64,000 bases of DNA from contig NZ_ATTE01000001.1 of the NCBI RefSeq assembly GCF_000419525.1, positions 3,842,501 to 3,906,500 on the forward strand, given 5' to 3'. The position numbers were made by a program, and so were the translations under genes. The notes beneath the pieces were generated by a model that made no database searches, was not told the DNA's origin, and saw nothing but the letters and a program-made list of their open reading frames with translations. Shown here one piece after another: positions 20,244-43,254 of the stretch (the stretch's first letter is position 1; each line of letters starts with the position of its first letter). The stretch is from Leucothrix mucor DSM 2157. Lineage in GTDB: Bacteria > Pseudomonadota > Gammaproteobacteria > Thiotrichales > Thiotrichaceae.

Positions 20244-20960
20244 ATGAAAGCAATACAATCACTCAGCGCGCTAAGTCTGGTACTTGGCATCGGCTTTAGC
20301 ACTGCAGCACTAGCCGAGAGTCATGGCGGTAAGCCAGTAGGAATTACCGCCGACTTAATGAGCCTTTCAGTAATGCACAATGGCAAGCCCGTCACCATCC
20401 AGCGCAATCAAGATAATGAAGCGGTGATTAATCCTGACTTTGCTAAAACCTCTCGCGCCTGCCCGCCGTTTTGTATCCAACCGATGAGCGTAGCTGAGGG
20501 TGTAGAAACCTTGGGTGAGTCAGAAGTCATTGATTATATTGCCAAGATGAGTGCGGGAGACTCCAATATTATGGTTGTTGATTCACGCACGCCAGACTGG
20601 GTGAAGAAAGGTACGATTCCCGGCTCCGTGAATGTTCCATGGACGAGTTTGGTACCAGCGCAAGGGGCAACCACGGAAGGCATTATCAAGGTGATGATGG
20701 ATAGTTTTGAGGTAACGCTAGCCAATGATGCCGATGTAATGGATGTTGATGAAGCCATTACCGATGGCGACCCTGCCGAAGTATTTGACTACTCCCGCGC
20801 CAAAACGCTGGTGCTGTTTTGTAATGGCATGTGGTGCGGACAATCACCCGCCAGTATTAAAACCTTACTGAAGTATGGCTACCCGACTGAGAAACTTAAA
20901 TATTATCGAGGCGGTATGCAGACTTGGGAAATTCTGGGCTTAACGACAGTAAAACCCTGA
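20244..20960 (+). CDS. Exported rhodanese-like protein
   Basis: The 238-residue protein has a signal peptide (1-24, ending ALA-ES). The C-terminal rhodanese domain (about 95-235) starts at VVDSRTPDWVKKGTIPGSVN and has the active-site loop CNGMWCGQS with candidate nucleophile Cys193 and Cys198. A second cysteine pair (CPPFC, 73-77) precedes the domain. Rhodaneses move sulfane sulfur. Its export and its divergence from a secreted DsrE-like protein point to periplasmic sulfur chemistry. It ends at the bidirectional terminator at 20981-21020. Confidence 0.83.
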   Translation: MKAIQSLSALSLVLGIGFSTAALAESHGGKPVGITADLMSLSVMHNGKPVTIQRNQDNEAVINPDFAKTSRACPPFCIQPMSVAEGVETLGESEVIDYIAKMSAGDSNIMVVDSRTPDWVKKGTIPGSVNVPWTSLVPAQGATTEGIIKVMMDSFEVTLANDADVMDVDEAITDGDPAEVFDYSRAKTLVLFCNGMWCGQSPASIKTLLKYGYPTEKLKYYRGGMQTWEILGLTTVKP

Positions 20961-23194: not shown

Positions 23195-24229
23195 ATGGAT
23201 ATTACACAACTGCTGGCATTTTCGGTAAAAAATAACGCGTCTGATCTGCACATTTCAGCAGGTCAACCTCCTATTATTCGTGTTGATGGCGACATGCGCC
23301 GCGTCAATCTACCCATTCTGGAACATAAAGATGTTCACAGCATGGTGTATGACATCATGAATGACAAACAACGTAAAGACTTTGAAGAAAACTGGGAAAC
23401 TGACTTTTCCTTTGAGATTCCGGGTGTCGCACGCTTTCGTGTTAACGCATTTAACCAAAACCGTGGTGCGGGCGCCGTATTCAGAACCATCCCGAGTAAG
23501 ATTCTCTCGCTGGAAGATTTGAATGCACCATCTATTTTTAAAAAGATCACAGATAACCCGCGTGGACTCGTACTAGTAACCGGCCCGACCGGCTCGGGTA
23601 AGTCGACCACGCTAGCCGCAATGATCGATTATAAAAACAAAACGGATTATGGCCATATTCTGACACTGGAAGATCCAATCGAATTTGTTCACGAGAGCAA
23701 AAAATGTCTGGTCAACCAACGAGAAGTGCATCGCGACACCAAGAGCTTTGAAGCCTCATTGCGCTCAGCGTTGCGTGAAGATCCGGATACTATTCTGGTT
23801 GGAGAGATGCGTGACCTTGAAACCATTCGCTTGGCGCTAACGGCAGCAGAAACCGGTCACTTAGTATTCGGTACGTTGCATACTACCAGCGCACCAAAAA
23901 CCATTGACCGTATTGTGGATGTGTTCCCAGCAGCGGAAAAAGACATGGTTCGCTCAATGATTTCAGAATCCCTGCAAGCCATTATCTCGCAAACATTATT
24001 GAAGAAAACCGGCGGCGGACGTGTTGCCGCACATGAAATTCTAATCGGAACCCGAGCCATTCGCTCGATGATCCGTGAAAACAAAATTGCTCAAATGAAA
24101 TCAACACTGCAAACCAGCTCTGGCGAAGGTATGCAGACATTAGATCAGTCATTGCAGAAGTTAATGTCCCAAGGCCTGATCTCCCGTGAAGTTGCTATGT
24201 CCAAAGCAGACAGCGCTGCATCCATCTAA
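23195..24229 (+). CDS. pilT: Type IV pilus retraction ATPase PilT
   Basis: The 344-residue protein has the Walker A motif GPTGSGKST (130-138), the Asp box ILTLEDPIEFVHESKK, the His box GTLHTTSAPKTIDRI, and the PilT-specific C-terminal AIRSMIRE stretch. These hexameric motors depolymerise type IV pili at the inner membrane and drive twitching and DNA uptake. It is followed closely by two further PilT-class ATPase genes (25-bp gap, then a 4-bp overlap), and is divergent from yggS. Confidence 0.96.
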   Translation: MDITQLLAFSVKNNASDLHISAGQPPIIRVDGDMRRVNLPILEHKDVHSMVYDIMNDKQRKDFEENWETDFSFEIPGVARFRVNAFNQNRGAGAVFRTIPSKILSLEDLNAPSIFKKITDNPRGLVLVTGPTGSGKSTTLAAMIDYKNKTDYGHILTLEDPIEFVHESKKCLVNQREVHRDTKSFEASLRSALREDPDTILVGEMRDLETIRLALTAAETGHLVFGTLHTTSAPKTIDRIVDVFPAAEKDMVRSMISESLQAIISQTLLKKTGGGRVAAHEILIGTRAIRSMIRENKIAQMKSTLQTSSGEGMQTLDQSLQKLMSQGLISREVAMSKADSAASI

Positions 24230-24254
24230 ATAATAAAAATAATACCCGGAGTGA

Positions 24255-25424
24255 ATGAGCGGTATGGATAAAGAAGGTGCAATGGCATATGTGCATAGCC
24301 TGCTACATAATGTCTTAAAACAAAAAGGCTCGGATCTGTTTGTGACCGCAGGCGCACCGCCTAGTGTCAAAATTAATGGCTTAATGACACCACTATCGAG
24401 CCAAGGCTTGAGCGAAGAGCAGGCAAGAATGTTGGTTCGTTCAATCATGAATGACAAACAACTGCGAGCGTTTGAAGAGTATATGGAAGGGAACTTTTCC
24501 ATTAGCCTGCCCGGTTCCGACCGCTTTCGTGTGAATGCGTTTACGCAGCGTGGTTGCTCCGGCATGGTGTTGCGACATATTCCCAGTGAAATTCCGAGCT
24601 TTAAGAAGTTGGGCGTGCCGCCGGTATTGAAAGACATCACGATGGCAACGCGTGGCTTAGTGATTATGGTTGGTGCAACCGGCTCAGGTAAGTCGACCAC
24701 CCTCGCCTCCATGGTTGATCTTCGAAATGAATCAACCCAAGGACATATCATCACGATTGAAGATCCGATCGAATTCACGCATCCCCATAAGAAATGCTTG
24801 GTGACTCAGCGAGAAGTTGGTTTGGATACCGACAACTACGCGATCGCCATGAAAAATACCCTGCGACAAGCACCGGATGTCATTCTGGTGGGAGAGGTAC
24901 GTGATCGTGAAGCGATGGAGTATGCAATTTCCTATGCGGAAACCGGCCACCTATGCCTGACAACGTTGCACGCCAATAGCACCAACCAAGCCATTGACCG
25001 GATTATCAACTTCTTCCCGGAAGAGCGTCGCCCACAACTATTAATGGATTTATCGCTTAACCTAAAAGCCATTGTCTCACAGCGACTGACTCGTCGACGC
25101 GATGGCAAAGGTCGTTTCCCAGCCGTTGAAGTCATGATCAATACACCGATGATGGCAGACCTGATTCTGAAAGGTGACATCTCTGGTATGAAAGAGCTGA
25201 TGGCCAAATCTAACCAGCTCGGCATGTGTACTTTTGACCAGGCACTCTTCCAAATGATTGATGCCGGAATTATCAGCGTGCAAGAAGGCATGCGTAATGC
25301 CGACTCCATCAACGACCTGCGCTTACAACTAAAACTCGGTAGCCGTAACTCTAAGAGTAATGACTTCTTTAAAGGCACTGAAGAGTTGTCGATCGAAGCA
25401 ATTAGTGACGAGGCTGCCTTATGA
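24255..25424 (+). CDS. pilU: PilU-type retraction ATPase (first paralogue)
   Basis: The 389-residue protein matches PilU better than PilT. It has MVGATGSGKSTTLASM (Walker A about 140-148), TIEDPIEFTHPHKKC, TQREVGLDTDNYAIAMKNTLRQAPDVI, TTLHANSTNQAIDRI, and the PilU-like tail GMRNADSINDLRLQLKLGS. PilU assists PilT in forceful retraction and usually needs it. The ATG at 24255 lies 3 bases after GGAG; another ATG at 24264 has better spacing and would shorten it by three residues. The stop overlaps the next gene by 4 bp. Confidence 0.92.
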   Translation: MSGMDKEGAMAYVHSLLHNVLKQKGSDLFVTAGAPPSVKINGLMTPLSSQGLSEEQARMLVRSIMNDKQLRAFEEYMEGNFSISLPGSDRFRVNAFTQRGCSGMVLRHIPSEIPSFKKLGVPPVLKDITMATRGLVIMVGATGSGKSTTLASMVDLRNESTQGHIITIEDPIEFTHPHKKCLVTQREVGLDTDNYAIAMKNTLRQAPDVILVGEVRDREAMEYAISYAETGHLCLTTLHANSTNQAIDRIINFFPEERRPQLLMDLSLNLKAIVSQRLTRRRDGKGRFPAVEVMINTPMMADLILKGDISGMKELMAKSNQLGMCTFDQALFQMIDAGIISVQEGMRNADSINDLRLQLKLGSRNSKSNDFFKGTEELSIEAISDEAAL

Positions 25425-26569
25425 GCGATCCGAATCAGTTACAAATCACCGCATTTTTGGCGGCCATGGTTAAGCACGAAGCATCCGATTTATACCTTAC
25501 GACGGGCGCACGAGCCTCCATCAAAGTCATGGGTGGCTTCAAACATCTCACTAAAGAATCACTAAAACCTGGCGTGGTGGCGGCTTTAGCCAAAGGCATG
25601 ATGAGTGATGTCGAGTGGGAAAACTTCCGTACTAGCAAAGAAATGAACAAAGGCATGGCCATCCGCGATGTCGGCCGCTTTCGTTTAAATGCCTACCATC
25701 AGCGCGGTGAAGTATCGATGGTGATACGCCATGTACGCTCGGATATTTTAACGCCGGAGCAATTGGGATTACCTGAAGTCCTGAAAGAACTGGTGATGAA
25801 AAAAGACGGGCTAGTCTTGTTCGTCGGTTCAACCGGTGCCGGAAAGTCGACATCAATGGCTTCGCTAATTCAATATCGTAATGAGCGCCATGCCGGACAT
25901 ATCCTGACGATAGAAGACCCTATCGAGTTTGTATTTACTCACAGTAAATCGATTATCGGTCAGCGGGAAGTCGGGTTCGATACGTTATCCTATAAAAACG
26001 CAATGCGTGAGGCGATGCGCGAAGCACCCGATGTGGTGATGATTGGAGAGGTACGGGACACTGAAACAGTGGACTCTGCAATGGGCTTTGCAGATACCGG
26101 TCACTTAGTGATTACAACCCTGCATGCGACCAATACCACACAGGCGTTAGACCGTCTGCTGTACTTATTTCCACCCGATCAGAAGCAACGCATTCTGATG
26201 GATTTATCGCTTAATTTAAGGGGTATTGTGGCACAACGCTTGATTCCTGATGTTAATGGAAAACGGGTACTGGCGAGTGAAGTACTGGTTAACACACCAT
26301 TCGTTGCGGAGATCATTCGTAAAGGTGCCACGCATGAGTTAGCACAAATCATGGAAAAGGGCTCAACGGACGGTATGCATACCTTTGACCAGTCTTTAGC
26401 GATGCTGTGCACCACGGGCAGAATCAGTAAAGAAGAGGCATTAAGTAACGCAACCTCCAAGAATAATCTGGAGTGGCGTCTTAACTTTGAACAAAAAGCT
26501 GGTGATGATAAGCCAGATTCGGTAGCCTCCGCGCCGGGCTCCACCGCATTGCCCACATTAGAAATGTAA
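25421..26569 (+). CDS. PilT/PilU-type ATPase (third tandem paralogue)
   Basis: The 382-residue protein is an intact third retraction-type ATPase. Walker A is GSTGAGKST (136-144), with TIEDPIEFVFTHSKS, GQREVGFDTLSYKNAMREAM, MIGEVRDTETVD and TTLHATNTTQALDRL. It resembles PilU more than PilT (LMDLSLNLRGIVAQRL, EEALSNATSKNNLEWRL) but differs in the His and Asp boxes. The C-terminus from about 360 is low-complexity (DSVASAPGSTALPT). It overlaps pilU by 4 bp. Most Gammaproteobacteria have only pilT-pilU, so this may be a specialised duplicate. Confidence 0.88.
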   Translation: MSDPNQLQITAFLAAMVKHEASDLYLTTGARASIKVMGGFKHLTKESLKPGVVAALAKGMMSDVEWENFRTSKEMNKGMAIRDVGRFRLNAYHQRGEVSMVIRHVRSDILTPEQLGLPEVLKELVMKKDGLVLFVGSTGAGKSTSMASLIQYRNERHAGHILTIEDPIEFVFTHSKSIIGQREVGFDTLSYKNAMREAMREAPDVVMIGEVRDTETVDSAMGFADTGHLVITTLHATNTTQALDRLLYLFPPDQKQRILMDLSLNLRGIVAQRLIPDVNGKRVLASEVLVNTPFVAEIIRKGATHELAQIMEKGSTDGMHTFDQSLAMLCTTGRISKEEALSNATSKNNLEWRLNFEQKAGDDKPDSVASAPGSTALPTLEM

Positions 26570-26588: not shown

Positions 26589-26831
26589 ATGAAACAACTA
26601 ACCATACTTGCTTTACTGAGCAGCACTATATTGATCACAGGCTGTTCCGGTCAGCAAGTAGCCGATGGGGCAATTGGCGTCGCAAAACTTCCTTTTAAAG
26701 TCGCGGGCGTTGCAGTAACCGCAGCAGCCGGAACCGCAGGCGCTTTAGCTGGAACAGCAGTAGGCGGCCCTATTGGCGGCGCAATTGGTGGCGCGGTCGG
26801 TAGTGCTGTAGTTGGCGCAGTCGTTAACTAA
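26589..26831 (+). CDS. Small glycine-zipper lipoprotein
   Basis: The 80-residue protein has a lipoprotein signal with lipobox ITGC (Cys19). A Gly/Ala-rich segment from about 42 to 80 follows, with repeated GG-x3-G spacing (GGPIGGAIGGAVGSAV), a glycine-zipper pattern that can insert in or pack against the outer membrane. No specific family is recognised. It begins 19 bp after the third pilus ATPase gene, so it may be co-transcribed with it. Confidence 0.75.
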   Translation: MKQLTILALLSSTILITGCSGQQVADGAIGVAKLPFKVAGVAVTAAAGTAGALAGTAVGGPIGGAIGGAVGSAVVGAVVN

Positions 26832-26882
26832 ATTAAAATATCCTAATAAAGGACTATCAGATTTTGTATAAAAGTCTGCTAT

Positions 26883-26932
26883 AGTTATTGCCGTAATGTA
26901 CCGGATTTCACTATGGACCGCGGCAATAATTA
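26883..26932. repeat. Inverted repeat (hairpin or operator) before the envelope cluster
   Basis: TTATTGCCG (26885-26893) and CGGCAATAA (26921-26929) form a perfect 9-bp inverted repeat with a 27-base spacer. It lies in the 158-bp gap upstream of the GTG at 26990. No T-run follows, so it is not a clear terminator; an operator or leader hairpin is possible. Confidence 0.45.
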
Positions 26933-26989
26933 TTATAATCTGACCACCTCTGGCAAATTTTCTCAAGCAAGTAACGGCGAGGTTTTTTC

Positions 26990-28513
26990 GTGAAAAAAAC
27001 CGAGACCGATCCTCAGAGTCAATATCAAGAAGCCGAAGCTCTACGTAAAGCGCATCGTAATGATGAGGCCCGTGCTCGCTACCAACAAGCGATTAACAGC
27101 AGCGATACTCGTACTCAAGAACGTGGCGAACGCGCACTGACCCGGCTTGAGGGTGTCAATCGCCGTTTAGGTTGGCGCATCTATCCCTATGTATTACTGC
27201 CCTTTGTATTAGGTGGCGTGCTGTATGCCGGTTACCACTTATTAAATGAGCGCTTTGAAACGCAGCGCGCCGAAACAGACCCAAAAAACTTTGTATTTAT
27301 TGAATGGCTAGCCGAGCAACAAACTCGTGAAATTGTCAGCAATTTAATGCAAGCCAACCCAGAATTACAGTTCAGTTTTAATCGTGCGACCTCCGACTCA
27401 GCAATGAGCCCACTGGAGGCCATGCAGACATTAATGAGCCAACGCCTGCAAGACCAAATTCGTGAAGGTAATCAGCCCGGCGATGACAGTGCCGCTGGTG
27501 ACGGCGAAGGAGATGGCGAGCCTCCCTTCAGCTGTAGCGTGGACAAACCGGTCGCCTGCTCTAGCGTGGATAAGCCAACCGCTCCTGGAGAAAGGCGTGA
27601 GGATATTGCCTTGTTGGTCCGTTCTTACCGTACCGTTTTGGATAATGAAAAAGACTGCAGCAAAATCGAAACAGCCATTCAATCACTCGCCGAACAAATC
27701 CAATGGCGTAGTAGTGAGTCCACCGTTAAAGCAGAACTTGAGCATCTGGCACTGAGTTGTTATTCACGCCAGAAAGATAATGAAAAAGTCATTGAGCATG
27801 CCCGTAAACTGCAATGCGCAGGCGACACCAACTCGGTTAATACCAGTTACTGGTACCTGACCGCCAGCTATCATCAAACGGGTGACTTAGCGGCCGCTCA
27901 ACGCATGTATACCTGCTTCAATGAAACCGTAGACCATCTAGCCAAATATAAATTTGAGCCTTCAAATATTGCCTCGCGTCATCGTGAATCGGGTGCTTTA
28001 GCCTGGTTGTACTTTAACGACCTTAATGCGGCTGTCGGCGAACTGGAAAAAGCCCGTAATATTCTGCAGAAAGCTAAAACCAATAATTTGAGTCTTGAGT
28101 ATGTCGCCTCCGAGGTGGACTTGGATTTGATGGAAACCTACGTCACCGCCAATATTGATTTACCAACGTTTATCGCACTGCATGAAGACATCAATAGTAG
28201 TGGTCTACTGACCGATGGCTATAAACAAATCAAAGATACGCTAGCCGGTATTTACTACCTGCAAAATAAGCAAAATGAAAAAGCCGTGATTGCACTGGAT
28301 AATGTCGCTACCCGTTTTGAACAGCTGCCAGAATACATTTGTAGCTGGGATTGGTCTGGTTTTCAGCGCGCGCTAACTGACTCAATTGCTGACCCGCAAT
28401 TGCGCCAAAAGGCTGATCAGTTGGTTGTCGCCACCGATTGCTATGTGCCTCAAAGCATCGACCAGCGTATTCAAAAAGTGCGCGAGGTTGTTCAATGGCT
28501 ACAAAGGCCTTAG
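26990..28513 (+). CDS. Unknown membrane-anchored TPR-like protein
   Basis: The 507-residue protein starts at a GTG. Residues 1-60 are cytosolic with a TPR-like helix pair (YQEAEALRKAHRNDEARARY), followed by one membrane span (about 64-84). The large C-terminal part is then expected in the periplasm. It has a low-complexity acidic linker (about 164-180, DDSAAGDGEGDGE), two VDKP repeats with cysteines, and helical TPR/SEL-like repeats (about 205-500) with several cysteines that could form disulfides. I do not recognise the family. It is 13 bp upstream of the gene at 28527, whose ribosome site overlaps this stop, so they are coupled. Confidence 0.75.
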   Translation: MKKTETDPQSQYQEAEALRKAHRNDEARARYQQAINSSDTRTQERGERALTRLEGVNRRLGWRIYPYVLLPFVLGGVLYAGYHLLNERFETQRAETDPKNFVFIEWLAEQQTREIVSNLMQANPELQFSFNRATSDSAMSPLEAMQTLMSQRLQDQIREGNQPGDDSAAGDGEGDGEPPFSCSVDKPVACSSVDKPTAPGERREDIALLVRSYRTVLDNEKDCSKIETAIQSLAEQIQWRSSESTVKAELEHLALSCYSRQKDNEKVIEHARKLQCAGDTNSVNTSYWYLTASYHQTGDLAAAQRMYTCFNETVDHLAKYKFEPSNIASRHRESGALAWLYFNDLNAAVGELEKARNILQKAKTNNLSLEYVASEVDLDLMETYVTANIDLPTFIALHEDINSSGLLTDGYKQIKDTLAGIYYLQNKQNEKAVIALDNVATRFEQLPEYICSWDWSGFQRALTDSIADPQLRQKADQLVVATDCYVPQSIDQRIQKVREVVQWLQRP

Positions 28514-28526
28514 GAGCGTTTACCGC

Positions 28527-30362
28527 ATGATTGATAGTCTCTTATATCAGCTGATTACGGCTGAAACAGACAGCAAGCACATCGACCCAATGCAAGCGGA
28601 TGACTTTGAGCGTCCGGCGTTCTATGCGCACTGGATATCACCGGTACGCTACCTCTTGGCTCGACGCTACATTAAGCACAAGAAAGCCATTCTGGAGCAG
28701 TTTAACAAACAAGGGATTTATCCTGTATTCAACCGCGATTTCACACCTGAGCTACTCGCACGTTTGCACAAAAAGTCATGGTTTTCCTGGCTGAAGCAAC
28801 CGAAGCACTGCTTTTTTCCATTTTATATCACCATTTTTTATCCCTTATTAGCTGCCGTTATTATATTCGGTAGCTGGCAAGCTCATATTTGGTATGAGAA
28901 TAAAACACTGCATCAGGCATTAGCGGATCGGATGCCTTATCACTCAGAGTTACTCCACCGTACGCTGGTTGCGAAGCAATATCAGAACATCCCGCTAATG
29001 GAGCAATATCAGCAGAAAGCAGATGAGGAAGCGCGCAATATTATTGCGGCGGTTCCGGATAAAGGTAACGTCAGAAACTTAATGCAGTTGGCACTCGACA
29101 ACCTATCAAATGTCAGCATGACTAATGCCCAAATCATGGTGCTTTTTAAAAACCTGAATGCCGAAATGGACAGTCAGGGAATCCCTTATTATTTATCGCC
29201 CAAACTATTTAATAGTAGCTGCTCAAGCTTTGCGCCCGGCCTTGATAAAGGCAACGCTGACATGTTCAATACCTTGGCTGACCTGTTTAATCAGTATAAA
29301 GAAGACGGAAAAGCTGATGCATCTAAAGCACCAGCAATCACTGGCTGCAGAACGGGTATCGTCACCGTTTACAATGTGACCGAGCGTAATAAGCTTGATT
29401 ACGTCATGACCGAAGCGGATAAAGTCAGCCTGCCATTGTTTCATGTGAAACGTGCGGACCGCGTTCCTGCAGCCGATGGCGCTTTAGGTCTGACCTTTAA
29501 AAGTCAGGGTATTGGCTCGCTGATCCTATTGGATCAGATTGACCGTTTTGCCGAGGAATCCATCCTTCCTGCACTCACCTTTCAAGGGCGCTCCTTTATC
29601 ATTCCGTATTGGCTTCAGGGCTACTACGATATCGAAGAAAGCATTACTAAGAATTACCAATCTGAGCTAGGCGAGTTGTTTAGCAATCCTGAATCTCTGC
29701 GCTTACTGCGCGAAGCTGCTAAGGAAATGCTGCGGGATAGGCAACACTTGTCGGCTTCTCGTATGCAGCAAACATTGCAGCGCTCAACACCCGGCGCAGG
29801 TGATGGTGGCATTTTAAGCGGCAGTTTGGATGTTATCAGCGGCATGATGACTAAGTCGGATAAAGACATAAACCATGCAGCCAGAACAGCCGCCAGCAAA
29901 GAAATCACTGCCCTGTCAGAAAGCTTGCTGCCAAGTATTGAGTATCACGAAGCCTATCACCAAATCGAGAAAGAAGACTGGAAGCAGCCCTATTGGGTAC
30001 CCACTTTACTTGAAGGCCTCAGTGAAAATGGCATTGAAAGCAGCTTAGAAGAACTCGGTGCTTACCTGACTCAAATGGTTTATACACCGGATGGGCAGAA
30101 AGTTTGGCTAACTAAATTGCTGCTGTTCTCGCTCAACTCAATGACCCGGGATCAGCCTGAGTTTTATGCCTCCTCCATGATTTTTTCAGCCATGCGGGAT
30201 GAGTATTTATTGCAAGACATTCGGGCGGATTTTAGTTTAGATGTGGATGAGAAAGTGCGTATTTACAAAACACTATCCACGATGGAACCAGCAGAGTTAC
30301 AACGCATGGCAGCCAAAGTCTTCACGCATTTATTTGCGCGTCCGGTGGTGGTATTGCAGTAA
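28527..30362 (+). CDS. Unknown single-span membrane protein with HExxH motif (possible zincin)
   Basis: From the ATG at 28527, behind TAGGAG, the protein is 611 residues. An N-terminal cytosolic part (1-95) is followed by one membrane span (about 97-118) and then a large domain. It has an HExxH motif, H474-E475-A-Y-H478 (IEYHEAYHQIE), and 30 residues on LEELGAYL with E508/E509. That is a gluzincin-like layout: two His, a catalytic Glu and a downstream Glu. I do not recognise the overall family, so peptidase activity is inference. It overlaps regulatory space with the upstream TPR-like gene, and the OmpA-like lipoprotein follows 48 bp later. Confidence 0.75.
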   Translation: MIDSLLYQLITAETDSKHIDPMQADDFERPAFYAHWISPVRYLLARRYIKHKKAILEQFNKQGIYPVFNRDFTPELLARLHKKSWFSWLKQPKHCFFPFYITIFYPLLAAVIIFGSWQAHIWYENKTLHQALADRMPYHSELLHRTLVAKQYQNIPLMEQYQQKADEEARNIIAAVPDKGNVRNLMQLALDNLSNVSMTNAQIMVLFKNLNAEMDSQGIPYYLSPKLFNSSCSSFAPGLDKGNADMFNTLADLFNQYKEDGKADASKAPAITGCRTGIVTVYNVTERNKLDYVMTEADKVSLPLFHVKRADRVPAADGALGLTFKSQGIGSLILLDQIDRFAEESILPALTFQGRSFIIPYWLQGYYDIEESITKNYQSELGELFSNPESLRLLREAAKEMLRDRQHLSASRMQQTLQRSTPGAGDGGILSGSLDVISGMMTKSDKDINHAARTAASKEITALSESLLPSIEYHEAYHQIEKEDWKQPYWVPTLLEGLSENGIESSLEELGAYLTQMVYTPDGQKVWLTKLLLFSLNSMTRDQPEFYASSMIFSAMRDEYLLQDIRADFSLDVDEKVRIYKTLSTMEPAELQRMAAKVFTHLFARPVVVLQ

Positions 30363-30410
30363 ACTCGTTAGTATGCACCACTCAGTTCATTGCCTCGGGG
30401 AGGGCAAATT

Positions 30411-31235
30411 ATGCAGCGTAATAATTTAAAAAAATCAGCAAAGTCACTCCTATTAATCAGTGTGATTAGCTTTACTGCAGCCTGTAGTAATCAATCTATT
30501 TCAATACCGGGTAGCCAACTCTTCCAGCAGAATGAGCCTGACTGTGTTGATAAAAAAACTGGCAAGCCAATCGCTGGCTGTAAAACAGAAAATAAACCCG
30601 CAAGCAAAACAACGTCTGCTGCCACTCCAGCTGAGAATAAACGTGCACCTCTGATTTTATCTGCCGATAAACCTGTAGCAACAACAGAAACGGCTCCAGC
30701 TGCCGCGAAGTCAGCGGATATTGACCCCAATGCCAAGCTAGTCACTCAAGAGCCTGAGCCAGCAGTTCGTACCAATGCAGAACCAATTGAACCAGTCCTT
30801 GATGTCGCGCCAACAGTGACGGTAATTCCAGCACCCGCTAAAGTAACGACCACTAGCAATGTTACCTTAAGACGCCTGACTCTAAGCGGTGGAACCACAT
30901 TCCAACTCAATAGCTCAAAGCTTAATAAAGCTGGGCGCGATAGCCTTGCCCGTTTGGCAGGCACATTAAAAGCACCCGATACAACCGTGACGCGCATCCT
31001 CATTGAAGGGCATACCGATAGCAGCGGAAACGCCGCTTACAACCAGTCCTTATCACTTAAACGTGCCAATGCGGTTGCTGATTATCTGGCACAACAAGGC
31101 ATCGTACGATCATCCATGGAAACGATTGGCCGAGGTGAAAGCCAGCCAATTGCGGACAACAAAACCAAAGCAGGTCGTGCGCAAAACCGTCGGGTTGAAA
31201 TCACCGCCAGTGGAACCAGACAGAGTACCCGCTAA
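30411..31235 (+). CDS. OmpA-family peptidoglycan-binding lipoprotein
   Basis: From the ATG at 30411, with GGGGAGGG upstream, the protein is 274 residues (a TTG at 30390 is less likely). The signal ends in the lipobox TAAC. A long Pro/Ala/Thr-rich linker (about 45-145) leads to a C-terminal OmpA/MotB domain (about 160-270). The murein-binding signature is IEGHTDSSGNAAYNQSLSLKRANAVADYL (seen as GHTD..N..LS..RA..V), followed by GRGESQPIADN and RAQNRRVEI. Anchored by lipid, it would tether the outer membrane to peptidoglycan. It may be the outer partner of the unknown proteins encoded upstream. priA follows 15 bp later. Confidence 0.88.
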   Translation: MQRNNLKKSAKSLLLISVISFTAACSNQSISIPGSQLFQQNEPDCVDKKTGKPIAGCKTENKPASKTTSAATPAENKRAPLILSADKPVATTETAPAAAKSADIDPNAKLVTQEPEPAVRTNAEPIEPVLDVAPTVTVIPAPAKVTTTSNVTLRRLTLSGGTTFQLNSSKLNKAGRDSLARLAGTLKAPDTTVTRILIEGHTDSSGNAAYNQSLSLKRANAVADYLAQQGIVRSSMETIGRGESQPIADNKTKAGRAQNRRVEITASGTRQSTR

Positions 31236-39459: not shown

Positions 39460-40116
39460 TTATTGAGTTGGCTGAGGTGCCGGTGCGCTATCAGAAGCCA
39501 AGAATGACGGTAAGTAGCTACAAGCACTCACATAAGTCAGGTCGCAAATAGATGGCGGGTACTCGCCACTGACTGGCTGCCAGCCTGATTTAACTTGGCG
39601 AGTCTTTAGATACTTTCTAGCGTTGCGAAAACTTTCATAACCACTACCCGCCGTACTGCCCAAGTTGGTTTCATCATAGACAAAGAAGTATGCAAAATAC
39701 TGGGATGGATCGATCTGATTCAGCTGCTTCTGTAGCTCGCTATCTCGCTTCTCAAGCTCAGTAAACTTAGACCAGTCTTCAGTATCGCGCGCGTGGAAAG
39801 AAATGCCTTTCTCAGGATCAATCTGTGCAAACAAGCCTTGATACCCAAGATCAAAAATACGCTTATTCGCTGCAGCACCTTTGCTGGTTTGCTGCGCCGC
39901 ATTTAAAAACACCTGCTCCGTATTTAACACCAAAAGCCTGTCGTCTTTACTAATGATATAGGCTGGGCGCAATTCCGTTTCATGCTCGATCGGAATCTCC
40001 AGCTCATAGGTTTTATTGTTATCGTGAATCAAGTTGATCACGGCAAAGATAATCAAAATCCCCACCGAGTTGGATACGATATCCGTCAGTGAATCCACAT
40101 TGATCAGATTTTTCAT
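39460..40116 (-). CDS. ExbD/TolR-like membrane protein (second partner)
   Basis: The 218-residue protein has one N-terminal membrane span (about 13-30). The start MKNLINVDSLTDIVSNSVGI places an Asp (D12) at the edge of the span, as in the proton-carrying Asp of ExbD/TolR. The rest is a periplasmic domain with no recognised motif. It overlaps the preceding gene by 4 bp (ATGA) and is the last of dacB-ExbB-ExbD-ExbD. The ExbD assignment rests on topology and gene order rather than strong similarity. Confidence 0.65.
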   Translation of the reverse strand: MKNLINVDSLTDIVSNSVGILIIFAVINLIHDNNKTYELEIPIEHETELRPAYIISKDDRLLVLNTEQVFLNAAQQTSKGAAANKRIFDLGYQGLFAQIDPEKGISFHARDTEDWSKFTELEKRDSELQKQLNQIDPSQYFAYFFVYDETNLGSTAGSGYESFRNARKYLKTRQVKSGWQPVSGEYPPSICDLTYVSACSYLPSFLASDSAPAPQPTQ

Positions 40117-40739
40117 GGTGTTGATCCAGCGCCTGCCTGATTGTGCAGACTCAGTGCCCAGTTGGCATCCAGCGGCTCAAGTCCAACGCTAATGCTGCGT
40201 GCATTAGGTGACTCAGTCATTAGCTGACGCACCTTCTGGTAAGCCTGTCCGCCATTTGGATATACGCCAAACAGCACAAACTCTTCATAAAGAAAATTCG
40301 CTTTTAATGCCATTTCATTAATCTGTCGAATCTCATACATCCACAGCAGTACGTCTTCAGTATCTGGAGGTTGCGCGATCATATCCGGGCTGCTCTGCAA
40401 ATCCATCACACGGTCAACCATCGACTGCCGGCGTAGAATAATCATCGCCAGCAAAGCTTTGGATTCATCATCCACGACCTTTTGCAGCTCTTGAATACGA
40501 CCTACCGGTGGCACCACAATCACGCCATCTGGCATGGTAAAGATCTGGAAAGCAACCTTGTAGCCTTGCTCCAACTCCATGGTGAGTTTCACTTTTTGCG
40601 GTGTCGAAATACTGCTCAGAATATTGATAAATGACAACACACCCATCACGCACAGGAAAATACTAAGAAATGGAAATAAGCTTATCTCCAGTTTCTCCTG
40701 AGGCAGATAACGGGCGTAACGGGACGCTTTACTTGTCAT
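40113..40739 (-). CDS. ExbD-like membrane protein (first partner)
   Basis: From the ATG at 40737-40739 the protein is 208 residues; a longer frame reaches 40769. A basic N-terminus leads to one span (about 20-42) with the stretch ISLFPFLSIFLCVMGVLSF. This resembles the ExbD-like FPFL(D/S)...C..G group, but Ser stands where the proton-relay Asp would be. The periplasmic part (about 45-208) is unrecognised. It overlaps the ExbB-like gene by 11 bp and the next ExbD-like gene by 4 bp, showing tight coupling. Confidence 0.65.
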   Translation of the reverse strand: MTSKASRYARYLPQEKLEISLFPFLSIFLCVMGVLSFINILSSISTPQKVKLTMELEQGYKVAFQIFTMPDGVIVVPPVGRIQELQKVVDDESKALLAMIILRRQSMVDRVMDLQSSPDMIAQPPDTEDVLLWMYEIRQINEMALKANFLYEEFVLFGVYPNGGQAYQKVRQLMTESPNARSISVGLEPLDANWALSLHNQAGAGSTP

Positions 40740-41754
40740 GCTTTTTAAAGTCAGACAGACGCGATTCAAAGATCATTTCATACAGATCTTCCATCGTTTC
40801 TTGCAGCGCTGAAATTTGCGTGCTGAGCAATTTAATTTCATTAGCGACCGACTGCACCGGTGCCATGCTTGATGCAACAGAACCGTTCTCGCCAGTCATT
40901 GCAGTAGTAGATAGATTACCCACTTCAGCTACTAAGCTAGGCTTCACTTCGTGAAACCACTGCTGGTCTAATTGAATCAGATAAGCTTCTTCGCGCTTTT
41001 CCAACCAAATCATGGTCATCATCAACGGTACGCTAAGCAACAAAGCCAGCAAGGTCGTATCAAATGCAGTTGCGAGTGAATTGGTGACTAATGGTAGGTT
41101 ATCTTTCAGCATTGAAGAAACATCAGTCACTGAGTTGGTGGATGTCATCGCATCGGAGAAATGCGCGATACCATTACTGATTCCCCACACCGTACCGATG
41201 AAACCTAAGATCGGAATAGCCCAAACCATAAAGCGTGACAAGGCAAAAGAACCACGCATGTATTCACGCTCGGTAATTCCAAAGCCTTCATCAACCTGCG
41301 CATCCGTTTGCGATTGACCGAGATAGAGCTGCAAACGAGTCAGCAATAAATTGTCATTACCAACCAGCTTTAGCGGTACGCTTTGACGCAATCTCTGCCA
41401 TAAATCGCTGCCACCAACACCAATATTGGCTTCTTTAAGCATTGCTGGTAACGCTTTTGATACCAGCAAATGACTCTGTAATTGCTCACGACGTAACTTG
41501 CCGCGCTTCAACCATAGGTGCATTAAACTGGTCACAAAAAACCAAAGAATCAACGGTGAAATCCAGTTACCAAACAGGATTTTCAACACGCGATGCATGC
41601 TGCTCACATCGAGCATAAAATGCACGAACAATGCTGGAATTAAGACCAGTATCGCCCCCAATAACAGCGGTTGGAAAAATGCTTGTTCAATAGGGTACTG
41701 CCGGGTCATGGCTGCAGGAGCCAATGAAACCCGGGAATCAGCTTGTTGTGTCAC
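40729..41754 (-). CDS. MotA/TolQ/ExbB family proton-channel protein
   Basis: The 341-residue protein starts at a GTG with GAGAG 8 bases upstream. It has membrane segments at about 29-48, 64-82, 176-198 and 228-251, one more than standard ExbB. The third contains the family motif GFIGTVWGI (184-192) and the fourth the Thr-rich stretch ATAFDTTLLALLLS. The C-terminus (about 290-335) is a predicted coiled coil (IKLLSTQISALQETMEDLYEM). Such proteins form proton channels with ExbD/TolR/MotB partners and power envelope machines. It lies between dacB (36 bp upstream) and two ExbD-like genes. Confidence 0.85.
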   Translation of the reverse strand: MTQQADSRVSLAPAAMTRQYPIEQAFFQPLLLGAILVLIPALFVHFMLDVSSMHRVLKILFGNWISPLILWFFVTSLMHLWLKRGKLRREQLQSHLLVSKALPAMLKEANIGVGGSDLWQRLRQSVPLKLVGNDNLLLTRLQLYLGQSQTDAQVDEGFGITEREYMRGSFALSRFMVWAIPILGFIGTVWGISNGIAHFSDAMTSTNSVTDVSSMLKDNLPLVTNSLATAFDTTLLALLLSVPLMMTMIWLEKREEAYLIQLDQQWFHEVKPSLVAEVGNLSTTAMTGENGSVASSMAPVQSVANEIKLLSTQISALQETMEDLYEMIFESRLSDFKKHDK

Positions 41755-41790: not shown

Positions 41791-43254
41791 TTAGTAGCCC
41801 TTAGCCAGTTGTTGTCCACTTTTACCCCAGAACACCCACTCGATAAAGTTATCATGGATGCTGCGGGCACGGGTGCGGGCTGCAGGGTCGTTATGCAAAA
41901 TAGAGACGACATAAGTACGACCATCTGCGGCATTCACATAACCCGCAATACCACGTACGTCACGTAGCGTTCCGGTTTTAAAGAATCCACGACCACGAAC
42001 GGCAGACTTTTTGAAGCGACCCTTCATGGTGCCATCAACGCCAGCAACGGCCATTGAACGCAACCAAACATCACGGTTAGGACCGTAGTAAGCCTTGCTT
42101 AGTAGGTGAGCAATACTTGCGGTGCTAACGCGTGCATAACGGCTCAAACCAGAACCATTCTCGATACGCAGCTCGGGGAATTGTAATCCCTGACTACGCA
42201 AGTAATCATCAATCCCTTCCGCGCCTTTTTGTGGTGTACCGGGTGCGCCATAGCGCTTAGCACCAATTGCACGCATTAACTGACGAGCCATCACGTTATT
42301 ACTATCTTTAACAACCGTTGGCAGTAATTCACCTAAAGTTTTGGAGTAATGCGTGTGAATCAATCGAGCATTGGCAGGAGTTGCACCGACCATGAACTGA
42401 GCGTTGATGCGGCCTTTAAGCTCTTTAGTCCAGATAGTATTAATCGCAGAATACATAGTATTGGCCGGATCAGTCACCGCCATACTAAAACCACGCGCAC
42501 GACAACGACGCGCCATATAGCCACTAAAGGTTACGGTGACTGCATCACCTCTGCCACGCGAAACACTGGTTCTGACTGAACAGCTCTTCTTCGCGCGCTT
42601 AACCTTATTTACAATTCTTAAGTTGTGCGCAGGCGTTGAAGTGCTGGCATGAATCTTATTGCCACTGCGCCATACGCGAAACTTTGAGAGACGCTCATTA
42701 AACATCAGCGCATCTGGCTGTGCGTTGTAAGCGCTATACGGTTTACCATCAAAAGCACCCGGATCAATTTTCGGACCATTAAAGAACGTGTCATCGAAAA
42801 TCAGGCGACCCTGAATCGTGTGAATCCCTTTGCGGCGCAGTTGCGAGAGCATTTCACGCAAACCTTTCGTATCAAAGTCTGGCGCACCATAACCTTTAAT
42901 ATAAACATTGCCGGATAACACGCCAGCCTGCAGTTGACCATTGGTTGAGATTTCAATCGGCCAGCGATAATTGGGCCCTAATGACCCTAGCGCAACGTAG
43001 GAGGTCAGTAGCTTCATCACCGAAGCTGGGTTACGTGCAATCTCAGCATTGTGTGAAATCAGCGGTCTTGGCGAGCCAATGGCTTGCACATAGGCGCTCA
43101 TTCCCCACGGAGACATACCGGAGGAACGTAATAGCTTCTGGATTTCAGGAGGAAGTTGCGGATATATCGGCTCTGCGGCCGTTGCATTACTGCTGATCGT
43201 TAGCGAGAGTGCGCTTGCACAGAGTAATGTTTTTAAAATAGCCCTAAATTTCAT
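41791..43254 (-). CDS. dacB: D-alanyl-D-alanine carboxypeptidase/endopeptidase (PBP4, DacB)
   Basis: The 487-residue protein has a signal peptide (1-27, ATA-AE). The S13 active-site motifs are SVMK (78-81), SNN (318-320) and KTG (426-428), separated by the large insert typical of PBP4. It trims D-Ala from stem peptides and cuts cross-links in the periplasm. It precedes the ExbB/ExbD-like genes by 36 bp on the same strand, so co-transcription is likely, and lies 57 bp after ubiD. The basic region near 218-255 (KRAKKSC, ARRCRARG) is an unusual patch. Confidence 0.94.
   Translation of the reverse strand: MKFRAILKTLLCASALSLTISSNATAAEPIYPQLPPEIQKLLRSSGMSPWGMSAYVQAIGSPRPLISHNAEIARNPASVMKLLTSYVALGSLGPNYRWPIEISTNGQLQAGVLSGNVYIKGYGAPDFDTKGLREMLSQLRRKGIHTIQGRLIFDDTFFNGPKIDPGAFDGKPYSAYNAQPDALMFNERLSKFRVWRSGNKIHASTSTPAHNLRIVNKVKRAKKSCSVRTSVSRGRGDAVTVTFSGYMARRCRARGFSMAVTDPANTMYSAINTIWTKELKGRINAQFMVGATPANARLIHTHYSKTLGELLPTVVKDSNNVMARQLMRAIGAKRYGAPGTPQKGAEGIDDYLRSQGLQFPELRIENGSGLSRYARVSTASIAHLLSKAYYGPNRDVWLRSMAVAGVDGTMKGRFKKSAVRGRGFFKTGTLRDVRGIAGYVNAADGRTYVVSILHNDPAARTRARSIHDNFIEWVFWGKSGQQLAKGY

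Follow-up and report, generated by a model that had tools for sequence, protein, structure and literature searches.

A candidate ion-driven motor linked to a putative periplasmic TPR–metalloprotein assembly in Leucothrix mucor and its relatives

Which of the genes behind the pilus ATPases of Leucothrix mucor DSM 2157 belong to one envelope system? We addressed this question in a window of 64,000 nucleotides (contig NZ_ATTE01000001.1, positions 3,842,501 to 3,906,500) of the 5.19 Mb genome; coordinates below refer to this whole stretch unless another locus is named. A first-pass annotation had described four plus-strand open reading frames (ORFs) after pilT-pilU-pilU2, encoding a glycine-zipper lipoprotein, a tetratricopeptide repeat (TPR) protein, a 611-residue single-span protein and an OmpA-type lipoprotein, and had suggested that they might form one trans-envelope device associated with pili, gliding or filament formation. 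The ORF check of the window recovered all four in place on the plus strand, with the 13-bp gap between the second and third, and PF00437 matches confirmed the three ATPases ahead of them. The annotation of four genes at these positions was right, yet they do not constitute one system.

The proposed envelope cluster held for the TPR gene and the gene of the 611-residue protein (hereafter the HExxH gene, after its motif), and broke down for both lipoproteins and for the pilus link. When the gene neighbourhoods of these two products were searched, the pair recurred, and its steady partners were exB, exD1 and exD2 rather than, outside Leucothrix, pil or lipoprotein genes. These partner genes (39460-41754, minus strand) lie in the same window, 9 kb from the pair and on the opposite strand; neither they nor the invariant HExxH...EE motif had been noted in the first-pass annotation. 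We propose that the five genes, which in this genome form two clusters with 9 kb between them, code for a single ion-driven inner-membrane motor acting on a periplasmic TPR-metalloprotein assembly, a reading to which we give about an even chance.

Clustering and distribution of the five genes

In Cocleimonas and other genera, exB, exD1 and exD2 are located directly upstream of the TPR-HExxH pair, and all five genes occur together on one strand in 8 of 19 loci. The loci were obtained by scanning the contigs of one genome per species (84,980 species) with two short peptide patterns, EYHEAYH and [ST]LEELGAYL, a scan that distant relatives can escape and that perhaps omitted the genome of L. mucor itself. 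In total, 18 of the 19 loci come from records of Thiotrichaceae, Leucothrix or Cocleimonas, and one from a record named Proteobacteria bacterium. Four of the 11 incomplete loci end at or within the TPR or HExxH gene (L061, L067, L075, L079); the other seven (L062-L066, L070, L073) have the TPR gene without exB upstream in the available DNA, and L070 lacks the end of the HExxH gene. The gap between the TPR and HExxH genes reaches 113 nt (L031) and 183 nt (L074), so a single five-gene transcript is presumed rather than evident.

Among 39 genomes, L. mucor included, a homologue of the 611-residue protein was found in 11 and a TPR homologue in 12, and the two genes were adjacent wherever they were on one piece. 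The additional genome with TPR only, G001, has a completeness of 56%, and a contig end interrupts its TPR gene. In 63 genomes of the family, which share some assemblies with the 19 loci and hence are not independent of them, the HExxH gene was detected in 22 and exD2 in 27. All 22 carriers of the HExxH gene had exD2, and 36 genomes had neither. By genus (labelled g1 to g8, g1 being Leucothrix), the HExxH gene was present in 6 of 7 genomes of g1, 10 of 12 of g5, 5 of 9 of g8, 1 of 6 of g3, and 0 of 29 of g2, g4, g6 and g7. Absences were matched inside genera: in g5 ten of the 12 genomes had both genes and two had neither, and in g3 one of six had both and five neither. Furthermore, in 12 genomes picked with their HExxH status already known, the nine carriers had exB and exD2, and the three non-carriers had neither. 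In class-wide samples, the HExxH gene was found in 1 of 369 genomes and exD1 in 1 of 274, in both cases the source genome alone. Within these searches, the system was confined to one lineage.

Trees of the motor half and of the TPR-HExxH half, built for the 13 genomes with all five genes, had 9 of 10 splits in common; the conflicting branch was supported at 38% in one tree and at 84% in the other. The sole g3 genome with the system (G008) forms a long branch in both trees, which may reflect transfer or relaxed constraint. Much of the co-occurrence, given here as raw counts, the genomes being related, and of the tree agreement would be expected from vertical descent alone. One could therefore argue that the halves have nothing to do with each other beyond a shared ancestry, both consisting of lineage-specific genes. 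The relatedness of the carriers fits this explanation. In five genomes exD2 was found without a detected HExxH gene: G001 (56% complete), G405 (58%), G406 (84%), G018 (90%) and G408 (93%). The last three, all from g8 and 84-93% complete, fit the explanation too and leave room for real loss of the HExxH gene. The explanation does not account for the joint occurrence of the five genes in 8 of 19 loci, nor for the parallel absences within g5 and g3, and we consider it very unlikely.

The pilus link was not supported. If pilus ATPases, both lipoproteins, the TPR protein and the 611-residue protein formed one pilus or filament machine, as first suggested, their genes should share a distribution. 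Gene order is indeed conserved in the Leucothrix loci that span the region: L025, L026 and L029 have homologues of all four genes in the same order, L027 and L028 have the TPR gene (a fragment in L027), the HExxH gene and the OmpA gene, and glycine-zipper ORFs were found in L028 and L035. A close pilU2 (at least 62% identity) occurred in 10 of 12 genomes, L. mucor included; the best matches in the other two were 39% (G008) and 33% (G012), and G008 nevertheless has the TPR-HExxH pair. The pil regions of other genera, covering 7 of the 8 genomes outside Leucothrix with a close pilU2 (G016 was left out), contained no glycine-zipper, TPR or HExxH gene in any of the seven, in a BLAST search at E 1e-4 of ORFs of at least 60 aa that a short glycine-rich protein could escape and that in L111 extends only 0.7 kb past pilU2. 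The ATPase tandem itself recurred in six of these regions; the seventh (L110) has pilU-pilU2 without pilT, its contig beginning before pilU. The genes that come after pilU2 in these regions are different ones. L108 and L109 have OmpA-domain ORFs, encoded on the opposite strand at distances of 3 and 6 kb past pilU2. In the available loci from outside Leucothrix, none of the pil, glycine-zipper and OmpA genes adjoined the pair. Both lipoprotein genes were found to adjoin the pair only in Leucothrix, no whole-genome search having been made for the lipoproteins alone. Membership of the pil genes was rejected on the pilU2 distribution and the pil regions of other genera, and that of both lipoproteins on the other-genus loci and the same pil regions. 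With a promoter-like block also conserved ahead of the TPR gene (see below), a single pilus machine seems extremely improbable.

The putative motor subunits and their predicted partners

ExB belongs to the MotA/TolQ/ExbB family. It scored above the curated cut-off of PF01618 (29 bits vs 22.9; 27.7 bits for the Cocleimonas copy), and hhalign aligned it with the ordinary ExbB/TolQ proteins of the source genome at E 2.5e-7. Its profile found ExbB in the PDB at E 0.49, which is not significant. Four spans are typical of MotA and three of ExbB, and the four hydrophobic regions of exB resemble MotA.

The products of exD1 and exD2 have one span each, near the N terminus. In exD2, a transmembrane Asp at the start of the span (D12) is invariant in 13 of 13 sequences, as are two Cys residues; exD1 has Ser36 in 13 of 13 sequences at the position where ExbD carries Asp. 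The best profile alignments to ordinary ExbD/TolR place both D12 and S36 on the ExbD Asp with the spans in register, at E-values that are not significant (0.052 for exD2 and 0.17 for exD1). From position, size, topology and register we infer that both proteins are ExbD-like. No relation was detected between the exD1 and exD2 profiles. The Asp/Ser pair offers a natural test of whether two axle paralogues form a mixed dimer, because such a dimer would have one ion site.

Neither the TPR protein nor the 611-residue protein matched a Pfam or NCBIfam family above cut-off; TPR profiles matched the former below threshold only. The TPR protein has a short N-terminal TPR-like segment, a probable span at about 61-85, an acidic linker and a helical-repeat domain (204-505). 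The span was taken from the family alignment because the L. mucor copy has no 19-residue hydropathy window above 1.6. In the structural model the helical-repeat array runs from residue 204 to the end and the linker is of low confidence. TPR and other helical-repeat proteins were among the Foldseek matches listed, without a specific relative. All eight Cys residues are invariant in 16 aligned sequences.

The 611-residue protein is predicted to comprise an N-terminal part (about 1-95), a span (about 96-119) and a fold like that of dipeptidyl peptidase III (DPP III). HEAYH (474-478) and EE (508-509) are invariant in 20 of 20 aligned sequences, including three truncated members that all retain the motif; C232 and C274 are invariant as well. 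The invariant Cys residues of this protein, the TPR protein and exD2 are consistent with a periplasmic location. The AlphaFold model had a pLDDT of 77.6 and a pTM of 0.66, with low-confidence stretches at 354-358, at 412-447 and inside 231-273. In Foldseek, the best three PDB matches were DPP III, without significance (E 0.055-0.081, TM-score 0.21-0.25, root-mean-square deviation (rmsd) near 19 Å). In VIA-align, the first 14 rows were DPP III (9) and DPP III-like PolE (5), with Z 7.2-11.3 (DPP III up to 10.9) and rmsd 4.8-5.4 Å across 277-312 residues; the program cautions that a common arrangement may give Z values under 8, or under about 13 in helical folds. Row 15 was unrelated (Z 7.0, 48 residues). 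These comparisons tend to support a predicted DPP III-like fold.

The motif spacing is similar as well. Family M49, to which DPP III belongs, is defined by HExxGH or HExxH and by a second motif EExR(K)AE(D) (PMC9820243). In the Corallococcus enzyme the zinc ligands lie in H384ELMH388 and E417EAKAD, i.e. at a spacing of 33 (PMC9820243). The spacing from H474 to E508 is 34 in the 611-residue protein, and 30, counted by hand, in an M49 protein with HEVAH...LEEGKAD (L101). HEAYH agrees with the first M49 motif.

The weak significance of the structural matches and of the exD alignments weighs against the proposed motor-metalloprotein system, as do the unpaired exD2 genes described above and several further results. 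PF02472 (ExbD), searched at E 1, matched 0 of 13 members of exD1 and 0 of 13 of exD2, and neither was among the three PF02472 matches of the source genome. The second motif, EELGAY, departs from that of M49: it keeps E, E and A, with Gly in place of Arg/Lys and Tyr in place of Glu/Asp. There is no invariant His beyond H478 in the alignment of the 611-residue family. The M49 profile PF03571 did not pick up the L. mucor protein at E 0.001 and matched 0 of 20 family members, and hhalign against two M49 proteins was negative (probability 0.1%); M49 membership by sequence was rejected on these negatives. The best Pfam match of the family was 7TMR-HDED (E 6.4e-5, 2 of 20 members). PDB sequence searches with the single proteins, and with profiles of the 611-residue protein, exD1 and exD2, yielded no usable match. 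One genome (G393) has two exD2 copies (C7:5660-6286, C77:43927-44553) and one HExxH match, reflecting either a mixed assembly or a duplication. Complex formation, ion flow, catalysis and role are unproven proposals.

Alternatively, the 611-residue protein could be a PolE-like non-haem-iron oxidase or a structural metal-site protein that serves as a scaffold for the motor. PolE-family proteins have a DPP III-like structure with Fe and pterin (PMC12614342), their rows in VIA-align were level with DPP III (Z 10.8-11.3), and EELGAY is without the Arg/Lys and Asp/Glu of M49. The spacing of the third ligand, however, suits M49 and not the HE/DxxH-x21-23-E of the PolE family (PMC12614342). The EE pair of the second motif is also retained in the 611-residue protein. 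Moreover, free periplasmic pterin would be unusual. We regard this alternative as somewhat unlikely.

In the proposed motor-metalloprotein system, exB would form the ring of a MotA/ExbB-kind ion-driven motor, with exD1 and exD2 as its axle, presumably a mixed dimer with the ion-binding Asp on exD2 only. Contacts in the periplasm would transmit the movement of the axle to the TPR protein and to the anchored 611-residue protein. The latter would hold a single metal in its DPP III-like fold and would most likely cut periplasmic peptides or proteins. The motor might either carry the enzyme to its substrate or open the two lobes of the enzyme. Because the PBP4 gene adjoins exB in Leucothrix, we weakly favour a role in peptide processing tied to cell-wall or envelope upkeep. 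That a motor with an obligatory mixed axle, with one Asp-bearing and one Asp-less subunit and a single ion site, powers an anchored DPP III-fold envelope peptidase and so represents a new class of motor is a tentative idea that we consider doubtful. A metalloenzyme driven by such a motor would put the ion gradient to a new use. Our literature searches found no paper joining dipeptidyl peptidase III with ExbB and, among the papers listed, no description of this output module.

Gene context and the region upstream of the TPR gene

Positions of the five genes and of the neighbouring features are given in Table 1. The four ORFs of the first cluster are followed by priA and a gene for a SPOR-domain protein. 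The adjacency of the PBP4 gene and exB was kept in three further Leucothrix genomes examined (L055-L057); PBP4 was not beside exB in G013 or in six compared fused loci (L031, L060/L078, L068, L071, L074, L077).

Table 1. Features of the window discussed in the text
Feature	Position	Strand	Remarks
TPR protein (P0002)	26990..28513	+	507 aa, GTG start
611-residue single-span protein (P0003, HExxH gene)	28527..30362	+	starts 13 bp after TPR gene
exB, MotA/TolQ/ExbB-family channel subunit	40729..41754	-	341 aa, conserved C-terminal tail
exD1, small single-span protein	40113..40739	-	ATG start chosen from homologues; 11-nt overlap with exB
exD2, small single-span protein	39460..40116	-	4-nt overlap with exD1
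TCTGnTAYAVT block, extended -10-like	26875..26885	+	conserved in 6/6 aligned Leucothrix genomes
Short upstream ORF (MDRGNNYYN...)	26913..26993	+	TGA overlaps TPR start codon
Three PilT/PilU-type ATPases in tandem	23195-26569		precede the four ORFs; PF00437 (T2SSE family)
Glycine-zipper lipoprotein	26589..26831	+	80 aa; LITGC, presumably a lipobox; context, outside proposed system; pilU2 neighbour in Leucothrix
OmpA-type lipoprotein	30411..31235	+	274 aa; PF00691 E 8.7e-25, confirming the earlier call; context, outside proposed system; neighbour in Leucothrix
dacB/PBP4 (D-Ala-D-Ala carboxypeptidase/endopeptidase)	41791..43254	-	context, 36 bp upstream of exB; seen there in Leucothrix only

The 158-bp gap before the TPR gene contains the TCTGnTAYAVT block and the opening of the short upstream ORF, both conserved in Leucothrix. 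The block hints at a putative promoter of its own for the TPR and HExxH genes; promoter and terminator scans performed no better than on shuffled sequence. The upstream ORF has 26-30 codons, and its stop overlaps the TPR start (+4) in four of six genomes, lies at +8 in one and is absent in one. In the genome without this stop, the TPR protein itself starts at that ATG. Translational coupling or a leader function is possible.

Some other genes were observed near the pair. In four Cocleimonas-type loci, the HExxH gene is followed by a gene for a single-span protein with a long Ser/Thr/Glu-rich tail (L031:11327-12583, L074:10046-11416, L075:2270-3628, L079:1595-2890), which resembles TonB in shape alone; no Pfam family matches the L031 copy. 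In L031, one rhodanese-like gene lies between this gene and the HExxH gene. Directly after the HExxH gene of L031 lies the gene of a rhodanese-domain protein that is 32% identical to the product of 20244-20960 in the L. mucor window. In G013, exD2 is followed by a gene for a 190-aa protein of unknown kind with one hydrophobic stretch (L058:4640-5212).

Comparison with known motors and metalloproteins

Motors of this type are known to power flagella and gliding, import, the upkeep of the outer membrane and defence against phages. With the 5:2 motors MotAB, ExbBD, TolQR and AglRQS the proposed system shares a PF01618 ring subunit, adjacent genes for small single-span proteins, and an Asp that starts the span of exD2. 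It differs in that its small subunits are of two kinds, of which one lacks the Asp and neither belongs to PF02472, and in that its motor genes are joined in relatives to those of a TPR protein and a metalloprotein.

Similarity to Zorya is restricted to exB, which matches the PADLOC models ZorA2 (E 1.3e-5) and ZorA1 (E 3e-5). In Zorya, ZorB and ZorC/ZorD accompany ZorA, whereas exD1, exD2, the TPR protein and the 611-residue protein had no PADLOC match. Zorya was rejected on this basis, exB being the only match among the five proteins to which the scan was limited.

The five genes might instead encode an Agl/Glt-type motor for gliding or surface motility, in which a TolQ/MotA-like ring and two TolR-like axles move an adhesion complex through a TPR adaptor. 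AglR, AglQ and AglS of Myxococcus, with the TPR protein GltC, are similar parts (PMC3169522), and according to PMC9389320 it is not known whether AglQ and AglS pair with each other or each with itself. However, AglQ and AglS are members of PF02472 (PMC3169522) and both are predicted to carry the Asp (PMC9389320); exD1 and exD2 fall outside that family and exD1 lacks the Asp. Furthermore, the HExxH gene is missing from 41 of the 63 family genomes, g2 among them, which we take to be Thiothrix, and gonidia of Thiothrix winogradskyi are described as gliding (PMC9319827). A gliding motor is therefore unlikely in our judgement.

On the side of the proposed output, the 611-residue model has a fold similar to that of the PolE/DUF6421 Fe-pterin oxidases, for which we know of no motor partners. 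It differs from them in the motif, with 29 residues between His478 and E508 vs x21-23 (PMC12614342). From DPP III it differs in its membrane anchor, its motor-linked gene, the changed half of the second motif and the absence of a detectable sequence relationship. It resembles the subgroup of M49 that has the pentapeptide HExxH (Caldithrix, Corallococcus) in its predicted fold, the HExxH itself, the EE third-ligand motif and the spacing between them.

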